Positions 52,299 to 64,000 of a stretch of DNA of 64,000 nucleotides are shown one piece after another. The stretch comes from Methanocella arvoryzae MRE50 (GTDB taxonomy: Archaea > Halobacteriota > Methanocellia > Methanocellales > Methanocellaceae), in the NCBI RefSeq assembly GCF_000063445.1, contig NC_009464.1, positions 1,860,001 through 1,924,000 of the forward strand, written 5' to 3'. Every line of letters begins with the position of its first letter. Positions within the stretch are counted from its first letter, which is position 1. The translations under genes were made by a program, and so were the position numbers. The notes below the pieces were generated by a model. The model searched no databases and was not told the DNA's origin. It saw only the letters and a list, made by a program, of their open reading frames with translations.

Positions 52299-52672
52299 GT
52301 GGAATACTTGCAAAGGGACAGTAAAGTACTCCTGATACTGGTCATGGGGATGCTGATGGCCTCCATCGACGCGACTATCGTGGTCCTGGCGCTGCCGGCT
52401 ATAACCGCCAGCCTCCACACGAGCCGTTCGCTTTCGATCTGGGTGATCGTCATGTACCTCCCGTCGTGTCCGTGGCGACCACGCAGTTGGGCAGGCTCAG
52501 CGACCTGTTCGAGCTGGTCATCGAGTTCTTCACCAGGCTCAACTATGCGCTGCTGGCCGGGCTGCACGCTCTGTTAGCCGCCATCGATCGGACGGCGGCA
52601 TTGTCAGCTGCCTGCCACACGAGGTGCTGTGTACGTCCGCATCCCGTAAGTGGCACTGATAGGGGGGACTGA
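52299..52672 (+). pseudogene. remnant of an MFS multidrug transporter (DHA2 type)
   Basis: The first 50 codons encode a typical first membrane helix (VLLILVMGMLMASIDATIVV) and ITASLHTSRSLSIWVIVMYL. Then the frame is lost. The neighbouring frame continues the family motif as VSVATTQLGRLSDLF, but the sequence soon degenerates and most of the transporter (normally over 400 residues) is missing. A TATA-like TATTTTTAAAAAG remains upstream. The gene is clearly broken by a frameshift and a deletion. Confidence 0.75.
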
Positions 52673-55783: not shown

Positions 55784-56257
55784 TCAGTCAGCTCTGACTA
55801 CTACCAGAGCGTTCTCGTTCTTGTAGGTGATGTACCCTGGGGCGGAAACTTCGAGGGTCATGTACCCGGAGTTCTGGTTGGGGTTGAGCACGATATCGTT
55901 GGTTTTTATCAAATAAGCCTGCCCTGTCTTGTTGGTCATGTCCGAGCCTGCGCCGCCCATGCCGTAGACGATTACGCTGGCCCCTTCGATCGGGTCGCCG
56001 GCGGCGTCTGTCACTTTAACCTTGCACGTCCACGTCTTGTTTACTTTACCGAAGCCTGCCTTGTCTACGATCAGCATGTTGCCCTGCTTGCCGCTCACCT
56101 CAATAATAGAGGCGGAGAGCGTCTTCTGGGGCTTGAAGCCGTTCAGGGCTGAAACCATTGCGGCTAGCGCAATGACTCCGATCACCAGTACCACTATCAG
56201 CCTTACAGGGAGGCCTTCCACCCCTGCCTCGTCCTTTAAGAATCCCTTCTTCCTCAT
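55784..56257 (-). CDS. type IV pilin-like protein with D-E-A-G-V-E-G-L-P leader motif
   Basis: A short basic N terminus (MRKKGFLKDEAGVEGLPVR) leads into one hydrophobic helix (LIVVLVIGVIALAAMV), the layout of a class III (prepilin) signal. The mature part is a beta-rich domain with a CarboxypepD-like segment (DAAGDPIEGASVIVYG). The pilin-like protein at 63572 shares the motif D-[DE]-A-G-[AV]-[DE]-x-L-P before its helix. GTGATG precedes the chosen ATG. It probably forms part of the fibre moved by the ATPase and T2SF protein next to it. Confidence 0.75.
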   Translation of the reverse strand: MRKKGFLKDEAGVEGLPVRLIVVLVIGVIALAAMVSALNGFKPQKTLSASIIEVSGKQGNMLIVDKAGFGKVNKTWTCKVKVTDAAGDPIEGASVIVYGMGGAGSDMTNKTGQAYLIKTNDIVLNPNQNSGYMTLEVSAPGYITYKNENALVVVRAD

Positions 56258-56339
56258 GAGCATCACTTGCAAATTATTGAAAATAAGTATTCAAGTATTG
56301 TATTTAAAAATTTGCATTTGTGTGAAACCAAGTATGCTA

Positions 56340-56392
56340 TCTCTGTGCAATCTGTGACCCTGGCACAGCGCAGCGATCGTCTTGCTGTCTCA
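56340..56392 (+). repeat. partial CACAGATT-family repeat
   Basis: TGTGCAATCTGTGACCCTGG and CACAGCGCAGCGATCGTCTT match the right tip of the element at 19377-19662, ending in GCTGTCT. Only this tip is present. It lies downstream of the T2SF gene. Confidence 0.65.
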
Positions 56393-56436
56393 TGACGTAT
56401 AAGCAACCATAAATGCATATCCTGGTGATACTCTCG

Positions 56437-58329
56437 TCACATCATGCCGCTGAACATGACCCCTGATACTACGGTAGTAAGCGTAAATACAGCCACTGAA
56501 AAGGGCAGTGTCGTCCCCACGCTGTACATGAACTCGTACTCGTCGTCGCCGTGCTCGATGCCGCTGACGAATCTCAGGAGGATGATCACGAGGAGCACGA
56601 TGTAGAGGCCGACGATGAGCATGAACTCGTCCGCAGAAACCAGGGGCGCCGTCACCTGGGGTACCATGGGGAAGTAGGCTTTGGCCGCCTCGGGCATATT
56701 CTGGAGATCGATGGCGGTTTCGGCGATGACGGCTGTCACTGCGCCTGAGAGGGCGAGGGTGACGCCTCCGATGAAGGGGGCGAAGGCGATGCAGGTCGTC
56801 CTGAGCATGCTGGTCATGGTGAACAGCATCTTCCTCACTTCCTGCTCGATAGCCTGCAGTTCTTTCAGGTGATCTGCGAGCACGATGACGGAGGTGCCGG
56901 CGACTTCGCCGCTCATGCCGGAGGTCTCGACAAGCATGTTGATGGTCGCCCTTATCCTGTCGGAGTAGACGTCGGAGAAGGCGCCGTAATCGGGGTCCAG
57001 CACGGCTTCGCTCAGCGTGGTTCTGAGGCACCGGATGTTGTAGGCTGCCCGGGCGTAGGCTTTGCCGATTGTCGTGCCGGTCACGATTCGGGCGGTGTAG
57101 GCGAACGCCTCTTCGGGGGACCGGCCTTCTGATATACGCCGCCCTAACACGAAAAGGGAGTCGGCAAACTCGCCTTCCATGGCTACGATCCGGTCCCTGA
57201 TGAGCTTGTATGGCCTGTAGGCGCAGTAGCAGTAGATCGATATGGCTGCGGTGATGCCCCATAGAATGAACGTCGTCCCGGGAAAGGGCAGGGCATCCAC
57301 AGGCAGGAAGAAGTAGAGGCTGGCTATAGCCGCCCCGAGGCCGATTCCTGTCAGCGCCCAGGCCCATTTTGGCGTCCCGGCCGCTTCCGGGTGGTCAGGT
57401 GGTATTTCCGGCGGGGCGAAGGCGGCAGGCCGCTTCAGCAGGATGCTGTGGGCGTACGCCAGCGTCACGAGGGGAAAGGCGAGGTCGTAGAGGAGAAATA
57501 GCTGTACGGCGTTCACTCTGATGCCCACCACGGCCGCTGCCGGCAGCATGGCTACCAGCGCGAGGGGTACCATGACGAAGATCGAATAGAGGATCAGCGT
57601 CGGGGCGTGGAGCGTGGAGGAGAACGTGCTCATGAGGGAGCGGGTGCCGTCGAGTATCACCTGCAATGCTCTGTTAAGGGATATGGTGCGCATTGCCACT
57701 TCCCGCTCCCCGGTCGAGCTTTTGATGATGAAGAGGGATCGTTTGAAGTGGTCGCTGAAGCCTGTGTTCTGCCCTGCCAGCGCGTCCAGCGCGTCGTCCA
57801 TGCTGTCGTAGGCCCGGATCTGCAGGTCCCACATGAGCTTTCTAATATCCCGGGCGAGCTGCCTTCTCGAGTTTTTGACGGTGAACCGTAAAGACCGCTC
57901 CATGTTGGGGTTGAGCTTCATGGCCATGACGATGTAGCTGACCACTTCGGGCATGTCGCCGAGGGAGTGGACCCGCATGTAGTAGGCCTGCCGTTTAGGG
58001 TATTCTCCCGCTATGACGAACGTCACCACCGGAATGATGCCTGCGCAGGCGATCACGATGCCTGCGGTGATGTTATCGAGCATTCCCGCTGTAAATGCTG
58101 TGAGTCCGGCCGCCAGTATCAGGGCGAACGAGGCGGCCGCTGCCATGATCGCCAGTGACAGCACCTCGACAGCTTCTGTCTCCATGCCGGTAAAGGCGAG
58201 CGCTTCCTCCATCTCAGGGCTGGTGCTGGCTTCTGCATAGCCGGCCAGCCTTTCCCTGCCTATAATCTGGCTTAAGAGGCGGCAGGATGCCTTGCACGCC
58301 TGCGGAAAGAGTCCCGGCGCAGATCTCAT
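56437..58329 (-). CDS. fused double T2SF (TadC/FlaJ-like) pilus membrane protein
   Basis: This platform protein of 630 residues contains two T2SF units: the first around 120-260 (LGDMPEVVSYIVMAMKLNP) and the second around 410-560 (EFADSLFVLGRRISEGRSPEE), each followed by membrane helices. Archaeal pili use such proteins to connect the ATPase with the pilin helices. The ATG overlaps the ATPase stop by 4 bp, which fixes the start and shows coupling. About eight to ten hydrophobic segments are seen. The gene order ATPase-T2SF is as in archaeal type IV pilus operons. Confidence 0.85.
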   Translation of the reverse strand: MRSAPGLFPQACKASCRLLSQIIGRERLAGYAEASTSPEMEEALAFTGMETEAVEVLSLAIMAAAASFALILAAGLTAFTAGMLDNITAGIVIACAGIIPVVTFVIAGEYPKRQAYYMRVHSLGDMPEVVSYIVMAMKLNPNMERSLRFTVKNSRRQLARDIRKLMWDLQIRAYDSMDDALDALAGQNTGFSDHFKRSLFIIKSSTGEREVAMRTISLNRALQVILDGTRSLMSTFSSTLHAPTLILYSIFVMVPLALVAMLPAAAVVGIRVNAVQLFLLYDLAFPLVTLAYAHSILLKRPAAFAPPEIPPDHPEAAGTPKWAWALTGIGLGAAIASLYFFLPVDALPFPGTTFILWGITAAISIYCYCAYRPYKLIRDRIVAMEGEFADSLFVLGRRISEGRSPEEAFAYTARIVTGTTIGKAYARAAYNIRCLRTTLSEAVLDPDYGAFSDVYSDRIRATINMLVETSGMSGEVAGTSVIVLADHLKELQAIEQEVRKMLFTMTSMLRTTCIAFAPFIGGVTLALSGAVTAVIAETAIDLQNMPEAAKAYFPMVPQVTAPLVSADEFMLIVGLYIVLLVIILLRFVSGIEHGDDEYEFMYSVGTTLPFSVAVFTLTTVVSGVMFSGMM

Positions 58330-60560
58330 CTGCTCTCCCGGATGGCGCTGCCCAGCCATTGTTTCCAGGAGGCCAGCGCTTCATTGTAGTCTATCGTGCC
58401 GTGCTCTCTGCGAATGGTCTCGCAGCACGCCCGGTATTTGTCCATGTGCCGGGCGTACATCGGGGCCTCCATGAGGTCCGGCCTGGCCTCTCCAGCAGCG
58501 GCTACCGCTCCTATCATTTCTCCCCGGGCTCTCACGCAGGCGGAGACCTGTTCCAGCGACAGCCCCCAGCGGACAGATATCGCCTGCAGTGCCTCAGATC
58601 GGCCGGTATCGATGCGGTCCATGGGCACGAGGGAGTCCCTGTCAGCGGCATACAAAAGCAGGTCGTTAAAGGCGCTTTCAGGGTCATCGTCTGCCGCTCG
58701 CTTGACGATCTCGGCCACCTGGGTCACTCTCCTCTCCCTGATCACGCTGCCTCCCGGCCGGACCGTGGAGCAGACCGCCACAGCGTCCGTGGCCCGAAAT
58801 GAGGCTGGCGGCACTCCTATGTCGTGGACCACCCGCTCGAACACGTCTCTGCAGGAGGCGCCGTGGATGGTGCCCATCACCGAGTTGCCCGAGGCGCCCA
58901 CACGCATCGCCTCGTAGAGGGAACGCGCTTCAGCCCCTCTGACCTCTCCGAGGACGATCGCCGAGTCTCCCAGCCTCAGCGTGGCCCTCAGCGCATCCGA
59001 TGCCTGGAACTCGGCCTCCGAGCCTGAAACCGCTGCTCTGGTGCCGATCCCCTGCACTTTCCACCCGCACCGCTGCATGTCCTCGATTGGCAGCTCCGGC
59101 GTGTCCTCGATAGCGAGGATCCGGTAGCTGCGGGCTATTTCCAGCATGAGCGCGGTGAGCAGCGACGTCTTGCCGGCGCCCCTGGAGCCTGTGATCAGCA
59201 TCGAGGCCTGGCCGTCTACCAGCACTGACAGCAATCCGGCTGCATACGGCGATAGCATCTTCCTGTTGACCAGCTGAGGCAGCGTCCACGGGGTCTTCTT
59301 GTGCCGGCGGAATGCGTAGGCGAGGCCTCTGGTCAGGGGGCTGCCGATGGCAGACACTCTGGTGTGGAACTCGCCGAGGTCCATGTCCAGCACCGGGCTG
59401 GCCTCGGAGAACGGCCTGCCCGAGATCGCCCTCAGCCGGGAGATCATCGAGTCCACGTCGCTTTCCGACAGGTATACGTTGCTGGTGCATTCCTCTCCGT
59501 CGACGACCACGTGTAACGGAGTCATGCCTACCGGGGCGTTGACGTATACGTCCTGGATGTGAGGGTCGTTGAGCAGGTCTTCGATGATGCCCAGCCCCGA
59601 CGTGTACTTGACGAAGGAGAAGGTCAGCCTCTCCAGCCTCGGCCTGTCCAGGTATATGCCGGCTTCCCTGGCCGCATCCACTATGGCTTCCCTGGCCTGT
59701 CTGGTGAAGAACGCCCGGGCCCCCGCGGGGTCCATGAAACCGTCGTCGTAAGGCCGGTGCTTGAGCAGGCGCTCCCTTGCCGCAACGATCACCGACAGGT
59801 CTTCTCCTCCCACCGCGTATTCCCACGGCACCACGAAGTAGAGCTTTTCCAGGCTGTCCGGCAGCCGGTATATGGAGATCTGGAGGAGGGGAGACAGGCC
59901 GTCGGTTCCCTCCACCTCGTAAGACCTCAGAAATGTGGAGCCGTCAGGGGGCTCGGAGAGGATGCGGGACCTGGAAAACCGGGGCCTGATGTACGGCACG
60001 ATCTTCGAATAGCTGACGTCCTCTATTTCCCTTGCCATGATGGCCAGGTCGCCCACGTAGGCGGCGTACCGGTCCACGCAGGGGCTGCACTGCCCGGTCC
60101 TGCCCGCCTCAAAGCTCTCCGTGTACAGGCTTTTGATCTCGATGGCGGCGTCGAGCGGGTCACGGTATGCCAGCGCTGACACTCTGCGGGTCTCGTTCTC
60201 CCGCCGGGGGTCGCACCTGCCACACCCGTACCTTGTGAAGGCCGAGGCGTGCAGCCTGACGTCCTCGCAAAACGCCGCCAGGCGAAGGATGGCTTCCAGA
60301 GACTCGTGAGCGTATTCCCTGACGAAGTCCCGCTCGAGCTGCAGGCGCTCGATCCCGCCCTTGCCCGCAAGCGCGGCCAGGATGCCTTCCCTGCACGCCG
60401 GATCGTTCATGGACGACCTCCCTTTGCACCGGGAGCAGTCTATGATCATCTCTGTGCCCGTCATGCCCGCCCTCGTCCGGGCCGTACAGGCCGTGCCTTT
60501 ACTCTCTTCAGCCCCTGCCAGTCCTGCTATCCGCCGGAGTAGCAGACCACTGTCAAACAT
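58326..60560 (-). CDS. secretion/pilus ATPase (TadA/PilB-like) with Cys-rich N terminus
   Basis: A type II/IV secretion ATPase of 744 residues. The C-terminal motor has Walker A GSRGAGKTS at 458-466, LAIEDTPELP, the Walker B-like LGEVRGAEA near 537-545 and the His box TIHGAS. The N-terminal 170 residues are unusual: they carry CSRC (42-45), CGRC (113-116), CSPC (158-161) and single cysteines, suggesting zinc or Fe-S sites. The start is set at MFDSG because further upstream the frame overlaps the DJ-1 gene on the other strand. It drives assembly with the T2SF protein. Confidence 0.87.
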   Translation of the reverse strand: MFDSGLLLRRIAGLAGAEESKGTACTARTRAGMTGTEMIIDCSRCKGRSSMNDPACREGILAALAGKGGIERLQLERDFVREYAHESLEAILRLAAFCEDVRLHASAFTRYGCGRCDPRRENETRRVSALAYRDPLDAAIEIKSLYTESFEAGRTGQCSPCVDRYAAYVGDLAIMAREIEDVSYSKIVPYIRPRFSRSRILSEPPDGSTFLRSYEVEGTDGLSPLLQISIYRLPDSLEKLYFVVPWEYAVGGEDLSVIVAARERLLKHRPYDDGFMDPAGARAFFTRQAREAIVDAAREAGIYLDRPRLERLTFSFVKYTSGLGIIEDLLNDPHIQDVYVNAPVGMTPLHVVVDGEECTSNVYLSESDVDSMISRLRAISGRPFSEASPVLDMDLGEFHTRVSAIGSPLTRGLAYAFRRHKKTPWTLPQLVNRKMLSPYAAGLLSVLVDGQASMLITGSRGAGKTSLLTALMLEIARSYRILAIEDTPELPIEDMQRCGWKVQGIGTRAAVSGSEAEFQASDALRATLRLGDSAIVLGEVRGAEARSLYEAMRVGASGNSVMGTIHGASCRDVFERVVHDIGVPPASFRATDAVAVCSTVRPGGSVIRERRVTQVAEIVKRAADDDPESAFNDLLLYAADRDSLVPMDRIDTGRSEALQAISVRWGLSLEQVSACVRARGEMIGAVAAAGEARPDLMEAPMYARHMDKYRACCETIRREHGTIDYNEALASWKQWLGSAIRESR

Positions 60561-60672
60561 ATTTACACCAGATTGTAAATAAGTGTCTGTCAAGGAATAA
60601 ATACGTTTGCAGGCGCGCATAACGCCGGGACTCTTCAAGTACCCGCGGCCGAAACTGTGATCAGGTGAAGAC

Positions 60673-61242
60673 ATGAACGAGCTAAAGGGCAGGAAGATCG
60701 TGATGATCGTTGGAGACGGGTTCGAGGACTCGGAGCTACTATATCCTCTGTACCGATTCAGGTACGAGGCGTGTGCCGACGTTACGGTGGCGGGGATCGA
60801 GAAAGGGCAGACTTTGAAGGGCAAACACGGCGTGCCCGTCACCAGTGAGGCAGCGATCAGAGACCTGGCTCCAGACGAGTTCGACGCGCTGGTCATCCCC
60901 GGAGGGCAGAGCCCGGACCATATCCGCATCTACCCGGAGGTGATCAAGTTCGTGCAGGACTTCGACAGGACCGGGAAAACGATAGCCGCAGTCTGCCACG
61001 GGCCTCAGATCCTGATCACCGCCCGCCTGCTGAAAGGCAAGGACGCGACGGCCTGGAAGTCTCTCAGGGTGGACATGGAGGACGCGGGAGCTAACTACAT
61101 CGATAAGCCGGTCGTCATCAGCCAGCAGTACATATTCTCCCGGCAGCCTTCGGACCTCGGGTTCTTCTGCGACGCTATCATACAGGCCATGTCCCCCGGG
61201 AAGAGCATGACTGCAGCGGAGATGGCAAGGGCACAGGCATGA
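60673..61242 (+). CDS. DJ-1/PfpI-family protein
   Basis: The family nucleophile C108 is in AAVCHGPQIL, with an acidic partner near E18 in GFEDSELLYP. ALVIPGGQSPDHIR is also typical. Members include intracellular proteases, glyoxalases and deglycase-like proteins; which activity applies is unknown. CAGGTGAAGAC precedes the ATG. The stop overlaps the next gene by 4 bp, so the two are coupled. It is divergent from the pilus ATPase. Confidence 0.88.
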   Translation: MNELKGRKIVMIVGDGFEDSELLYPLYRFRYEACADVTVAGIEKGQTLKGKHGVPVTSEAAIRDLAPDEFDALVIPGGQSPDHIRIYPEVIKFVQDFDRTGKTIAAVCHGPQILITARLLKGKDATAWKSLRVDMEDAGANYIDKPVVISQQYIFSRQPSDLGFFCDAIIQAMSPGKSMTAAEMARAQA

Positions 61243-61889
61243 TGTTCAAGGACCGGAAAGATGCAGGCCGAAAGCTGTCAGAGCGGCTGGCTCAGGAGCA
61301 GTGGGACCAGCCGGTGGTCTTCGCGATTCCCCGGGGAGGCGTGCCCATAGGGTGCGAGATCGCCAGAAAGCTCCGAGCTCCGCTGGACCTGATCATTCCC
61401 CGAAAGCTCCCTGTCCCGTACAATCCGGAGGCGGGCTTCGGGGCTGTGGCGCCGGACGGCACCATAGTGCTGAACGACGACCTCGTGTCGCAAATTGGCC
61501 TGGACCAGGACGAGATCAACTCCATCGCCATGGCGGTGCTCGACGAGGTGCAACGGCGGATAAGGGAGTACAGGCTCGGGCCGCCGATCGACCCTAAAGG
61601 CAGGGACGTCATAGTGGTCGACGATGGCCTGGCATCGGGGTACACGATGATCGCCGCGGTGAGGGCGCTGAAGAAGAAGGGCCCGAAAAAGGTCGTCGTC
61701 GCGGTGCCCTGCAGCCCGAGGACTTCCGTGGAGAGGCTGGAGGAGGAAGCGGACGAAGTCATCTGCCTGGCGGTGCAGGAGCAGGGATCGTTCGCGGTGG
61801 CCAGCTATTACCAGAAGTTCCCGGACCTGTCGGACGGAGAGGTGCTGGCAGACCTGGGCACATGCACGCTGGTGCCTCCAAAGAGCTGA
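61239..61889 (+). CDS. phosphoribosyltransferase-family protein
   Basis: The PRPP-binding loop is recognisable as VIVVDDGLASGYTMIAAVRA, and the N terminus has FAIPRGGVPIGCEIA with RKLPVPYNPEAGFGAV. This subgroup of type I phosphoribosyltransferases is often encoded beside stress or hydrolase genes and lacks an assigned base. The length of 216 residues is usual. Translation is coupled to the DJ-1 gene, suggesting a shared repair or salvage role. Confidence 0.87.
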   Translation: MMFKDRKDAGRKLSERLAQEQWDQPVVFAIPRGGVPIGCEIARKLRAPLDLIIPRKLPVPYNPEAGFGAVAPDGTIVLNDDLVSQIGLDQDEINSIAMAVLDEVQRRIREYRLGPPIDPKGRDVIVVDDGLASGYTMIAAVRALKKKGPKKVVVAVPCSPRTSVERLEEEADEVICLAVQEQGSFAVASYYQKFPDLSDGEVLADLGTCTLVPPKS

Positions 61890-61954
61890 TCCGCGCCCGG
61901 CAGCAATACGTGGCATAGAAACCTTTATTATTTTTCATTATGATGTAAATTAGT

Positions 61955-63106
61955 ATGCTGTATACAGGGCGCCACTACCTGCTGGGCAATGCCGGCGACG
62001 GCCGCTCTTCCCTGTACCTCGGCCGTTATCTCGCCCTGGACGGATCTCAGGGAGCGCCGGTGCTGCTGGACGTCAGGAAACCCCACGCGGTGGTGATCTG
62101 TGGCAAAAGGGGCTACGGTAAATCGTATACCATGGGAGTCCTCGTGGAGGAGTTCGCCGGCCTTCCCGAAGCGCTCCGCAGGAATTTTTCCGTCATCGTA
62201 GTCGACACCATGGGCATATTCGGCAGTATGGCCGGCCCCGGAGGCATCGGCGCCAGGGTCTTCACGCCGGCCCCGTTTTTAAGCGAGATGCCTGCCGGGG
62301 CGCTGCCCTTCGAAATACCCACCGGCTCTCTGTCTGTCTACGACTATTGCGAACTGCTGGGAATCGAGCCTCTAAGCCCCCATGGAGCTGTCCTGGCCAG
62401 CGCGATCTCGGAGAGCGACACGTTCAGCATCGAGTCGCTGATCGACCGTATCCACTCCTCAGCCGCCTCCCCCGGGGTGACCTCGGCAGTCTGCGGCCTC
62501 CTCTCCATGGCATCTTCCTGGAAACTGTTTTCCCCGCATGCGAGTTTTGCCTCTCTGCTCGAGCCGGGCAGCATCAACATCATCGACCTCAGCGGCTACG
62601 GCCACGACCCCGGAATTAAATCCTGTGCAGTTGCGTCGCTGGCCCGGGCGTTATACGACGTCCGGGTCAGGGCCAGGCGGCGGGAGAACGGGTCGAGGGA
62701 GGTGCCGCTGATCTGGATGCTGATCGATGAGGCGCACATGTTCCTGCAACCGGACTCCGGTGCAGGCCGGGTGCTGGTCAACGAGTGGCTGCGGCAGGGC
62801 AGGCAGCCCGGGCTTTCGCTGGTCCTGGCTACCCAGCGGCCGTCAGCGCTGGGCTACGATGTGCTGTCCCAGGCCGACGTGATCGTCTGCCACCGGCTGA
62901 CTTTGAGGGACGACGTGGAAGCGCTGGAACGGGCCAGGCCACTCTACGTCAAGGAGCCGGTTCGAGAAGCGCTGGCCAGGCTGGGGAACACGAGGGGTGC
63001 AGCCATAGTGGTGGACGACGCGACCGAGTCCTACCACGTGATCAAAGTCCGGCAGCGGAAGAGCCTGCACGGCGGCGGAGAGCCGGAAATCTATGGCGCT
63101 GACTGA
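61955..63106 (+). CDS. HerA/FtsK-superfamily ATPase linked to a pilin locus
   Basis: The P loop GKRGYGKS at 50-57 and Walker B WMLIDEAHMF (256-260 core), with the sensor ATQRPS at 291-296, place it with HerA/VirB4-type pumps. The N-terminal 45 residues form a HAS-barrel-like strand set. It has 383 residues, shorter than HerA itself. TTTATTATTTTTC about 28 bases before the ATG and no ribosome binding site suggest a leaderless message. It overlaps the prepilin peptidase gene by 14 bp, so it likely belongs to the same surface machine rather than to DNA repair. Confidence 0.82.
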   Translation: MLYTGRHYLLGNAGDGRSSLYLGRYLALDGSQGAPVLLDVRKPHAVVICGKRGYGKSYTMGVLVEEFAGLPEALRRNFSVIVVDTMGIFGSMAGPGGIGARVFTPAPFLSEMPAGALPFEIPTGSLSVYDYCELLGIEPLSPHGAVLASAISESDTFSIESLIDRIHSSAASPGVTSAVCGLLSMASSWKLFSPHASFASLLEPGSINIIDLSGYGHDPGIKSCAVASLARALYDVRVRARRRENGSREVPLIWMLIDEAHMFLQPDSGAGRVLVNEWLRQGRQPGLSLVLATQRPSALGYDVLSQADVIVCHRLTLRDDVEALERARPLYVKEPVREALARLGNTRGAAIVVDDATESYHVIKVRQRKSLHGGGEPEIYGAD

Positions 63107-63575
63107 ACTCCTGCCGATCGCGGCTGCAGGTATCCTGCTCGCCGTTGCCGCCTGTATCGATGTCAGGTCCGGTCGCATTCCCAACTGGCTGACGCTCCTC
63201 TCAATCCTGGCGGGCATGGCAATCCTGTCAGTAAAGTGCATATACGGGTATCCCGTATGGACAGCCGCGTTAACAGCCGGAGTCTCTCTCGCTCTGACGT
63301 ATCTGCTGTGGTTCACCGGGTCATGGGGCGGCGGAGACGCTAAGGCCTGCCTCGGCGCCCTGCTGCTCGTCAGCCCGGCCTTTCCAGTGCTGTTGTTCAT
63401 CATTGCCTTTTCCAGCGGCCTGGCCCTCATAGTCGCTGTCAGGTGGATGTACCGGCTGACCGACTCGAAAAACAGGCACCGCCATGATAGTGGCGGCCGG
63501 CAGCTGGGGCCATCGCTTCTGGCAGCCTTTATCCTCTCTGCCGGAGCCTGCTCAGTACTATCAGGGGGTTCATGA
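63093..63575 (+). CDS. prepilin peptidase (A24 family, FlaK/TadV-like)
   Basis: This membrane aspartyl protease of 160 residues has catalytic D23 (ACIDVRSGRIPNWLT) and D82 in the GxGD motif (SWGGGDAKA). Four or five hydrophobic segments follow. It cleaves leader peptides of pilins. The next gene encodes a pilin-like protein and overlaps by 4 bp, giving an evident enzyme-substrate pair. A second probable substrate is the pilin at 55784. Its C terminus is polar with a HRHDSGGR stretch. Confidence 0.88.
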   Translation: MALTELLPIAAAGILLAVAACIDVRSGRIPNWLTLLSILAGMAILSVKCIYGYPVWTAALTAGVSLALTYLLWFTGSWGGGDAKACLGALLLVSPAFPVLLFIIAFSSGLALIVAVRWMYRLTDSKNRHRHDSGGRQLGPSLLAAFILSAGACSVLSGGS

Positions 63576-64000
63576 TGACGGACGATGCCGGGGCGGACAC
63601 CCTTCCGATCGCGTTCATCGCCACTTTGCTCATCGCTGCAGCCATCGTCGGTATAGCCGCAGCCGGAATCAGGAACGTCTCTCCAGTTGTGGATACCGGC
63701 TCCGTCGACGCGCAGGCGGAAGCTCTGGCGGCAGACTGCAGGGCCTTATTGTCCTGCGCCCCGAGGTACCTTGACGACCCTGGGTCTCCGGCGGGGGCCA
63801 CTAAAATTGTGGAGCTTTCCCTTCCCGATTCCACCGAGTATTTCGGGCTCGGCTGCGATCCCGGGGGAGAAAGTGCCAGCGGAGGCATCATCTGCTATTC
63901 AGTGGCTGGCAGTAAAAAGACGATAGTCGTAGACGCAGGCGTATCGTTCAGGTCCGGGGGTGACGGGACGCTGTCCTCCGTGCTCGAGGCTGAGCATGTC
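63572..64000 (+). CDS. pilin-like (pseudopilin) protein, cut by the window edge
   Basis: The frame starts at ATGATG overlapping the peptidase stop and stays open to the edge, 143 codons. MMTDDAGADTLPIAF leads into one hydrophobic helix (IATLLIAAAIVGIAAAGI), then a soluble domain with several cysteines (ADCRALLSC, GLGCDPGG, GIICYS). The D-D-A-G-A-D-x-L-P leader matches the pilin at 55784. Its start ATG could be the first or second codon. Being last in the HerA-peptidase operon, it is the likely local substrate of the peptidase. Confidence 0.82.
   Translation, partial: MMTDDAGADTLPIAFIATLLIAAAIVGIAAAGIRNVSPVVDTGSVDAQAEALAADCRALLSCAPRYLDDPGSPAGATKIVELSLPDSTEYFGLGCDPGGESASGGIICYSVAGSKKTIVVDAGVSFRSGGDGTLSSVLEAEHV

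Follow-up and report, generated by a model that had tools for sequence, protein, structure and literature searches.

A putative 4F-type pilus machine with a shared prepilin leader and a dedicated HerA-type ATPase in Methanocella arvoryzae and related archaea

Introduction

How archaea import DNA without a ComEC channel is open outside the Ced and Ted systems. A pilus-like locus in Methanocella arvoryzae MRE50 bears on this question. It lies at the right end of the window, the whole 64,000-nucleotide stretch analyzed here (bases 1,860,001–1,924,000 of the single-contig genome, NC_009464.1, 3,179,916 bases), and encodes two pilin-like proteins, a motor ATPase, a platform-like membrane protein, a small prepilin peptidase, and a HerA-type ATPase. 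Do these genes form one machine, and what would a HerA-type ATPase do in it? We consider it probable that they constitute a single pilus-like machine of archaeal type IV pilus (T4P) subclade 4F, with a shared prepilin leader and a HerA-type ATPase of its own, whose favoured, putative role is DNA uptake or cell-to-cell transfer. The original prediction, made from the letters of the window, had proposed a common machine and had read the leader as marking a pilin class apart, served by a peptidase of its own; the former idea is upheld below, the latter is not.

Results

The locus comprises the following features (window positions; arrows mark the predicted cleavage site):

55784–56272, minus strand: pilin 1 (PIL1), open reading frame (ORF) of the DUF7382 family; leader ..FLKDEAG↓VEGLP, hydrophobic helix, immunoglobulin (Ig)-like beta domain
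56437–58359, minus strand: candidate platform, a divergent TadC/PilC-like membrane protein without a Pfam T2SSF match
58326–60560, minus strand: PilB/VirB11-type motor ATPase with a Cys-rich N-terminus, 744 amino acids (aa); T2SSE
60673–61242, plus strand: DJ-1/PfpI-family gene, within the locus
61239–61889, plus strand: phosphoribosyltransferase-domain gene, within the locus
61955–63106, plus strand: HerA-type ATPase (HERA), 383 aa; DUF87/HerA, with HerA motifs
63093–63575, plus strand: small A24 prepilin peptidase (Peptidase_A24), overlapping the end of the HerA gene
63572–64000, plus strand, running 97 bases past the window edge: pilin 2 (PIL2), 174 aa, DUF7311-like; leader MMTDDAG↓ADTLP
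56205–56233, minus strand: pilin 1 leader motif DEAGVEGLPV
63581–63606, plus strand: pilin 2 leader motif DDAGADTLP

ORFs and Pfam matches (E-values 8e-20 for T2SSE in the motor ATPase, 1e-13 for DUF87/HerA in HerA, and 5e-11 for Peptidase_A24 in the small peptidase) confirmed the pilins, PilB-type ATPase, A24 peptidase, and HerA-like ATPase where the original prediction had placed them. Full-length pilin 2 matched DUF7311 at E 1e-5, slightly below the cut-off. The predicted T2SF platform stood in part: its ORF is in place, but Pfam T2SSF gave no match, and the assignment draws on where the gene lies, how long the protein is, its membrane segments, and a weak profile similarity to the other platforms of the genome (probability 9%, E 0.004; suggestive only). 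In almost every relative, the gene immediately follows that of the ATPase. The motor ATPase ORF extends over 58326–60929 (867 aa); relatives begin near 60560, making this the likely start of a 744-aa protein. Beyond the right edge, where more pilins had been suspected, none follow; pilin 2 is succeeded by glnA, encoded on the opposite strand, and is therefore the last gene of the machine on this side.

The leader was counted genome-wide with its pattern written as degenerate DNA and the reversed pattern as control. Exactly two matches were found in the 3.18-Mb genome, those of pilin 1 and pilin 2, and none with the reversed pattern; the two matches are not a product of chance, and both pilins do carry the shared leader. 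A tightened pattern (D-[DE]-x-[AG]-[VI]-E-G-L-P-[VI]), scanned across 295 whole Halobacteriota genomes, matched 29 times, always inside a pilin-1 gene (29/29; reversed pattern 0). This search, suggested with the original prediction, establishes the leader as a signature specific to the pilins of this machine, and as a very specific text marker for locating a pilin far from the other machine genes. E-G-L-P is invariant in a pilin 1 alignment of 10 sequences from Methanocellaceae and Halobacteria, and across the pilin-1 and pilin-2 families the leader reads roughly [DN]-[DE]-x-[AGS]-x-[DE]/x-[GT]-[LIMVF]-P, with the helix next. It also varies: DETGVDSFP is located upstream of the ATG of the pilin 2 gene in L049, and one Methanosarcinales paralogue has a leader one residue shorter (DERAMELP, DERAIELP). 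A second pilin-1 paralogue in Methanoperedens begins MA-(I/T/G)-GLPIK, is nearly leaderless, and may need little or no processing (L142 14871–15275; L152 9246–9662; L154 3801–4211; L138 12876–13292).

The leader had been called unusual on the premise that classic archaeal signals have a basic residue and Gly followed by Gln. This premise was too narrow. In Haloferax volcanii, PibD cuts PilA proteins at DAVS, DSAV, and RAVS (PMC4371748 Table 1), and Gly, Ala, or Ser at −1 is a general cleavage requirement of archaeal prepilins (PMC4371748). Judged by residues, DDRA↓IEGLP and DEAG↓VEGLP fit the Haloferax PibD sites, and we infer the cleavage position from this likeness.

Conserved gene order and joint presence carry the case for a common machine. 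The locus order is kept in 4/4 Methanocellaceae, the DJ-1/PfpI and phosphoribosyltransferase genes (60673–61889) being retained inside the pilus locus in all four. Two halobacterial genomes hold, in a row, pilin 1 (minus strand), HerA, a DUF7310 coiled coil, DUF7311, ATPase, platform, and then DUF7283–DUF7286; other Halobacteria have HerA and pilin 1 as neighbours, and ATPase and platform at another place, together with DUF7310/DUF7311. Several genomes of Candidatus Methanoperedens place HerA divergent from the ATPase–platform pair, others have two pilin-1 paralogues after that pair, and both arrangements are joined in contig L138. HerA is likewise divergent from ATPase–platform in Thermoplasmata metagenome-assembled genomes (MAGs), with an A24 peptidase behind it in two, and two f30 genomes cluster the platform, two pilin-1 paralogues, a coiled-coil gene, and pilin 2. 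HerA thus adjoins pilus genes in four lineages (Methanocellaceae, Halobacteria, Methanoperedens, and Thermoplasmata). In Methanosarcinaceae its neighbours are leucine-biosynthesis genes, and all pilus genes lie elsewhere.

Co-occurrence was scored in the 295 sampled Halobacteriota genomes with cut-offs of our own choice (HerA well above the general HerA background, plus a strong fragment in G226; pilin 1 at E < 1e-10). Orthologues of HerA, platform, and pilin 1 were present in 73, 76, and 75 genomes, and all three together in 67. HerA and platform were both found in 71 genomes (HerA only 2, platform only 5, neither 217), platform and pilin 1 in 72 (platform only 4, pilin 1 only 3, neither 216), and HerA and pilin 1 in 68 (HerA only 5, pilin 1 only 7, neither 215). 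The genes also decay together: the platform is broken in G211 (split) and G226 (several stops), pilin 1 is absent from both, and the HerA of G226 is a fragment. Because the genes keep company at unlinked positions and in several lineages, and decay jointly, simple hitchhiking is disfavoured, and it is strongly supported that platform, pilin 1, and HerA belong to one machine.

The motor ATPase points to the kind of pilus. It has nine Cys in its first 161 residues (25, 42, 45, 56, 98, 113, 116, 158, and 161 in the 744-aa form), including N-terminal CxxC pairs absent there from the genome's four paralogues. A tree split it from these four other pilus/archaellum ATPases at 100/100 and grouped it with sequences from Halobacteria, Methanosarcinales, Hadesarchaea, Woesearchaeota, and Diapherotrites (DPANN), among others. 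In the available part of its text, Makarova 2016 (PMC4858521) describes, for subclade 4F, a Cys-rich N-terminal ATPase in methanomicrobia, a halobacterial coiled-coil component (arCOG07564), and nanoarchaeal presence; it predicts that 4F pili have a major pilin of their own, arCOG02981, whose genes usually stand alone and tend to be duplicated in tandem, and cites the M. arvoryzae locus RCIX949–RCIX952 as a pilin–ATPase link in 4F. That locus is probably the one analyzed here. Since the Cys-rich ATPase, its clade membership, and the behaviour of the pilin match this description, the pilus most likely belongs to 4F, a recognised, barely studied kind, the placement resting on described traits and on a tree without named 4F references. 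Halobacterial loci have a DUF7310 coiled-coil gene immediately upstream, a candidate for arCOG07564 by its description, and the Methanosarcinales coiled-coil protein matches DUF7310 at a profile E of 2e-6, coiled coils being prone to false matches.

Class III prepilin traits, a short charged leader and a helix, are present in the pilin-1 and pilin-2 families. Pilin 1 is duplicated in many genomes and often lies apart from other pilus genes; it is probably the predicted 4F major pilin, the likeness to arCOG02981 being one of behaviour (stand-alone, duplicated) and not of arCOG assignment. Pilin 1 would thus probably be the major subunit and pilin 2 probably the minor one. The predicted pilin 1 model (mean predicted local distance difference test (pLDDT) 71) consists of a helix at 23–43 and an Ig-like beta domain. 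A fold search with this model gave no match at E ≤ 0.001; the weak matches, for the most part to Ig-like domains, included an archaeal pilus chain (E 0.006). Homology between pilin 1 and pilin 2 was considered and rejected, the two being alignable over only 28 columns around the leader.

The HerA-type ATPase retains the motifs of its family (Walker A GKRGYGKSYT, Walker B DEAHMFL, RQGRQPG, and ATQRP), which are conserved from Methanocella to Thermoplasmata, with DEAQ instead of DEAH in one Thermoplasmata sequence. It is shorter than full HerA. Its predicted model (mean pLDDT 76) most resembles the hexameric DNA translocases of the HerA type (E to 1e-15, template modelling score ~0.58), and sequence profiles also match solved HerA DNA translocases best; CedB and CedD match weakly (E about 0.001–0.004). 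Identity with a known defence HerA was rejected, the PADLOC matches (HerA, mad8) being partial or weak. In the available main text of Makarova 2016 (PMC4858521), HerA is not described as a 4F component and is mentioned as superfamily background. The literature searched, some of it available in part, yielded no description of a conserved HerA-type ATPase beside a 4F pilus and no mention of DUF7382, DUF7310, DUF7311, or DUF7283.

The small peptidase follows a different pattern. The genome has two A24 enzymes, the small one in the locus and a FlaK/PibD-type enzyme at 880 kb. Apart from 3/4 Methanocellaceae, the small enzyme was found only in two Thermoplasmata MAGs, where it immediately follows HerA (L139 7878–8714; L141 7124–7948), and these sequences form a clade of their own at 100/100, apart from PibD/FlaK; in L141 it appears to be the sole A24 enzyme. 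A distinct pilin class with a dedicated peptidase could draw on both observations. However, the distribution, the same-genus genome G029, and the A24 tree speak against it, and we regard it as quite improbable. In G029, pilin 2 comes right after HerA, both pilins carry the leader, and the locus has no peptidase; nor was an orthologue of the small enzyme found elsewhere in this assembly (99% complete, 220 contigs). A single A24 per genome is the rule in machine-bearing Halobacteria, Methanosarcinales, f30, and f31 (two in G236 and G157); those A24 enzymes that the tree covered group with FlaK/PibD, and none of those tested joins the clade of the small peptidase. Homologs of the pilins thus occur with different peptidases, and the proposed co-occurrence of leader and small peptidase does not hold. 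Because G029 and most relatives, including Halobacteria, Methanosarcinales, and f31, keep leader and machine without it, the small A24 peptidase is a lineage-limited accessory that is not conserved with the machine. Two Methanoperedens genomes have, beside the ordinary enzyme, a very short second A24 (L228 and L229, frames of 128 and 133 aa), unplaced in the tree.

Discussion

How might such a machine work? We propose that pilin 1 and pilin 2 would first lose their leader at A/G to a peptidase of class III (in most lineages PibD/FlaK, in Methanocella possibly also the small A24 enzyme) and would then be polymerised together by the TadC-like protein and the Cys-rich ATPase of the PilB type. The leader takes the form D-[DE]-x-[AG]-[VI]-[DE]-x-L-P, in which the conserved LP would open the filament-core helix. 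The dedicated HerA-type hexameric ATPase, in putative contact with the pilus as a part of the machine, would most likely move DNA at the membrane. ComEC (PF03772) was found in none of the 295 Halobacteriota genomes, so any passage of DNA would depend on a different motor. We tentatively favour DNA uptake or transfer as the putative role, with DNA as a possible substrate, and suggest, with considerable doubt, that a 4F pilus with a dedicated HerA pump forms a DNA-uptake or exchange machine across euryarchaeal halophiles, methanogens, anaerobic methanotrophic (ANME) archaea, and Thermoplasmata. If true, this machine would do the job of bacterial ComEC and of Ups plus Ced in Sulfolobales.

Several points weigh against this proposal. 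ComEC is missing phylum-wide in our sample, and its absence does not single out the machine. Among the genes adjoining HerA, we saw no relaxase, nuclease (NurA), or DNA channel, and ATPases of the HerA family are also at work in repair and defence. The pairwise Fisher p-values of the co-occurrence (1e-52 to 1e-60) ignore shared ancestry. The homology of pilin 2 to DUF7311 is weak, and haloarchaeal DUF7311 proteins lack the leader. No HerA orthologue accompanies platform and pilin 1 in genomes of f31 (G208, G218) and of the halobacterial genus g88 (G215, G220, G279), so HerA is not indispensable. The literature searched held no experimental work on genes of this cluster. The HerA-less f31 and g88 genomes are natural test cases for the contribution of HerA.

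The lack of DNA-processing genes beside HerA would suit a role as a second pilus motor, or as a regulator of assembly or retraction, in a pilus for adhesion or twitching that handles no DNA. To our knowledge, archaea lack PilT. Archaeal pili can retract without PilT (available part of PMC11178785), and HerA falls in the same FtsK–HerA superfamily as secretion ATPases (PMC4858521, available part). We nevertheless hold this reading to be somewhat less likely than DNA uptake or transfer: the nearest folds and profiles are DNA translocases, all HerA motifs are kept, and DNA import is the function of Ups plus Ced, the one archaeal T4P paired with a HerA/VirB4-type ATPase that has been characterised (PMC11868833). 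HerA might instead be a repair or defence protein merely near the pilus genes, as its distant position beside leucine-biosynthesis genes in Methanosarcinaceae and the weak PADLOC matches could suggest; its near one-to-one co-occurrence with the pilus genes even when unlinked, and its place next to them in four lineages, make this very improbable. A further question is whether the pilus extends at all. In many relatives, the genome encodes just one or two members of these pilin families, and the locus has no archaellum-type filament genes, as would be expected of a short, type II-like pseudopilus working as a piston to move protein or DNA across the S-layer. Against such a piston, which we find improbable, stand the dedicated 4F major pilin predicted in the available part of Makarova 2016 (PMC4858521) and the duplication of pilin 1 in many genomes, as is often seen with major pilins.

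The Cys-rich ATPase and its DPANN relatives are shared with described 4F pili, and the halobacterial coiled-coil neighbour and stand-alone duplicating pilin resemble theirs; the HerA gene, shared leader, DUF7311-type second pilin, and extra peptidase are new relative to the available main text of Makarova 2016 (PMC4858521). In Ups with CedB/CedD, too, a HerA/VirB4-type ATPase works alongside a type IV pilus (PMC11868833, PMC9905601). Ced has, in addition, a VirB6-like CedA and a VirB2-like pilin, neither of which was recognised in a search of the locus. The Haloferax PilA/PilB3-C3 pili have class III leaders, cut by PibD as above, but differ in the clade of their ATPase and platform and in a helix start other than (V/I)EGLP. 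Tad/Flp and Epd pili also use a T2SSE-type ATPase, and combine a short A24 peptidase with a D-E-x-G leader, as here. These pili have two platform genes (TadB and TadC) where this locus has one long one, and no secretin or TadZ gene was seen in the locus. The near-constant pairing of a pilus locus with HerA, found also in tractable Methanosarcina and haloarchaea, makes a DNA-handling role worth testing.

Two observations concern other parts of the genome. A second pilus locus lies at 2,160,000–2,179,000 of the same genome (L073), with ~5 consecutive small pilin-like proteins and its own ATPase. Within the window, a short open frame at 52299–52577 resembles the start of a major facilitator superfamily (MFS) transporter and, judged by eye, is probably broken by a frameshift.

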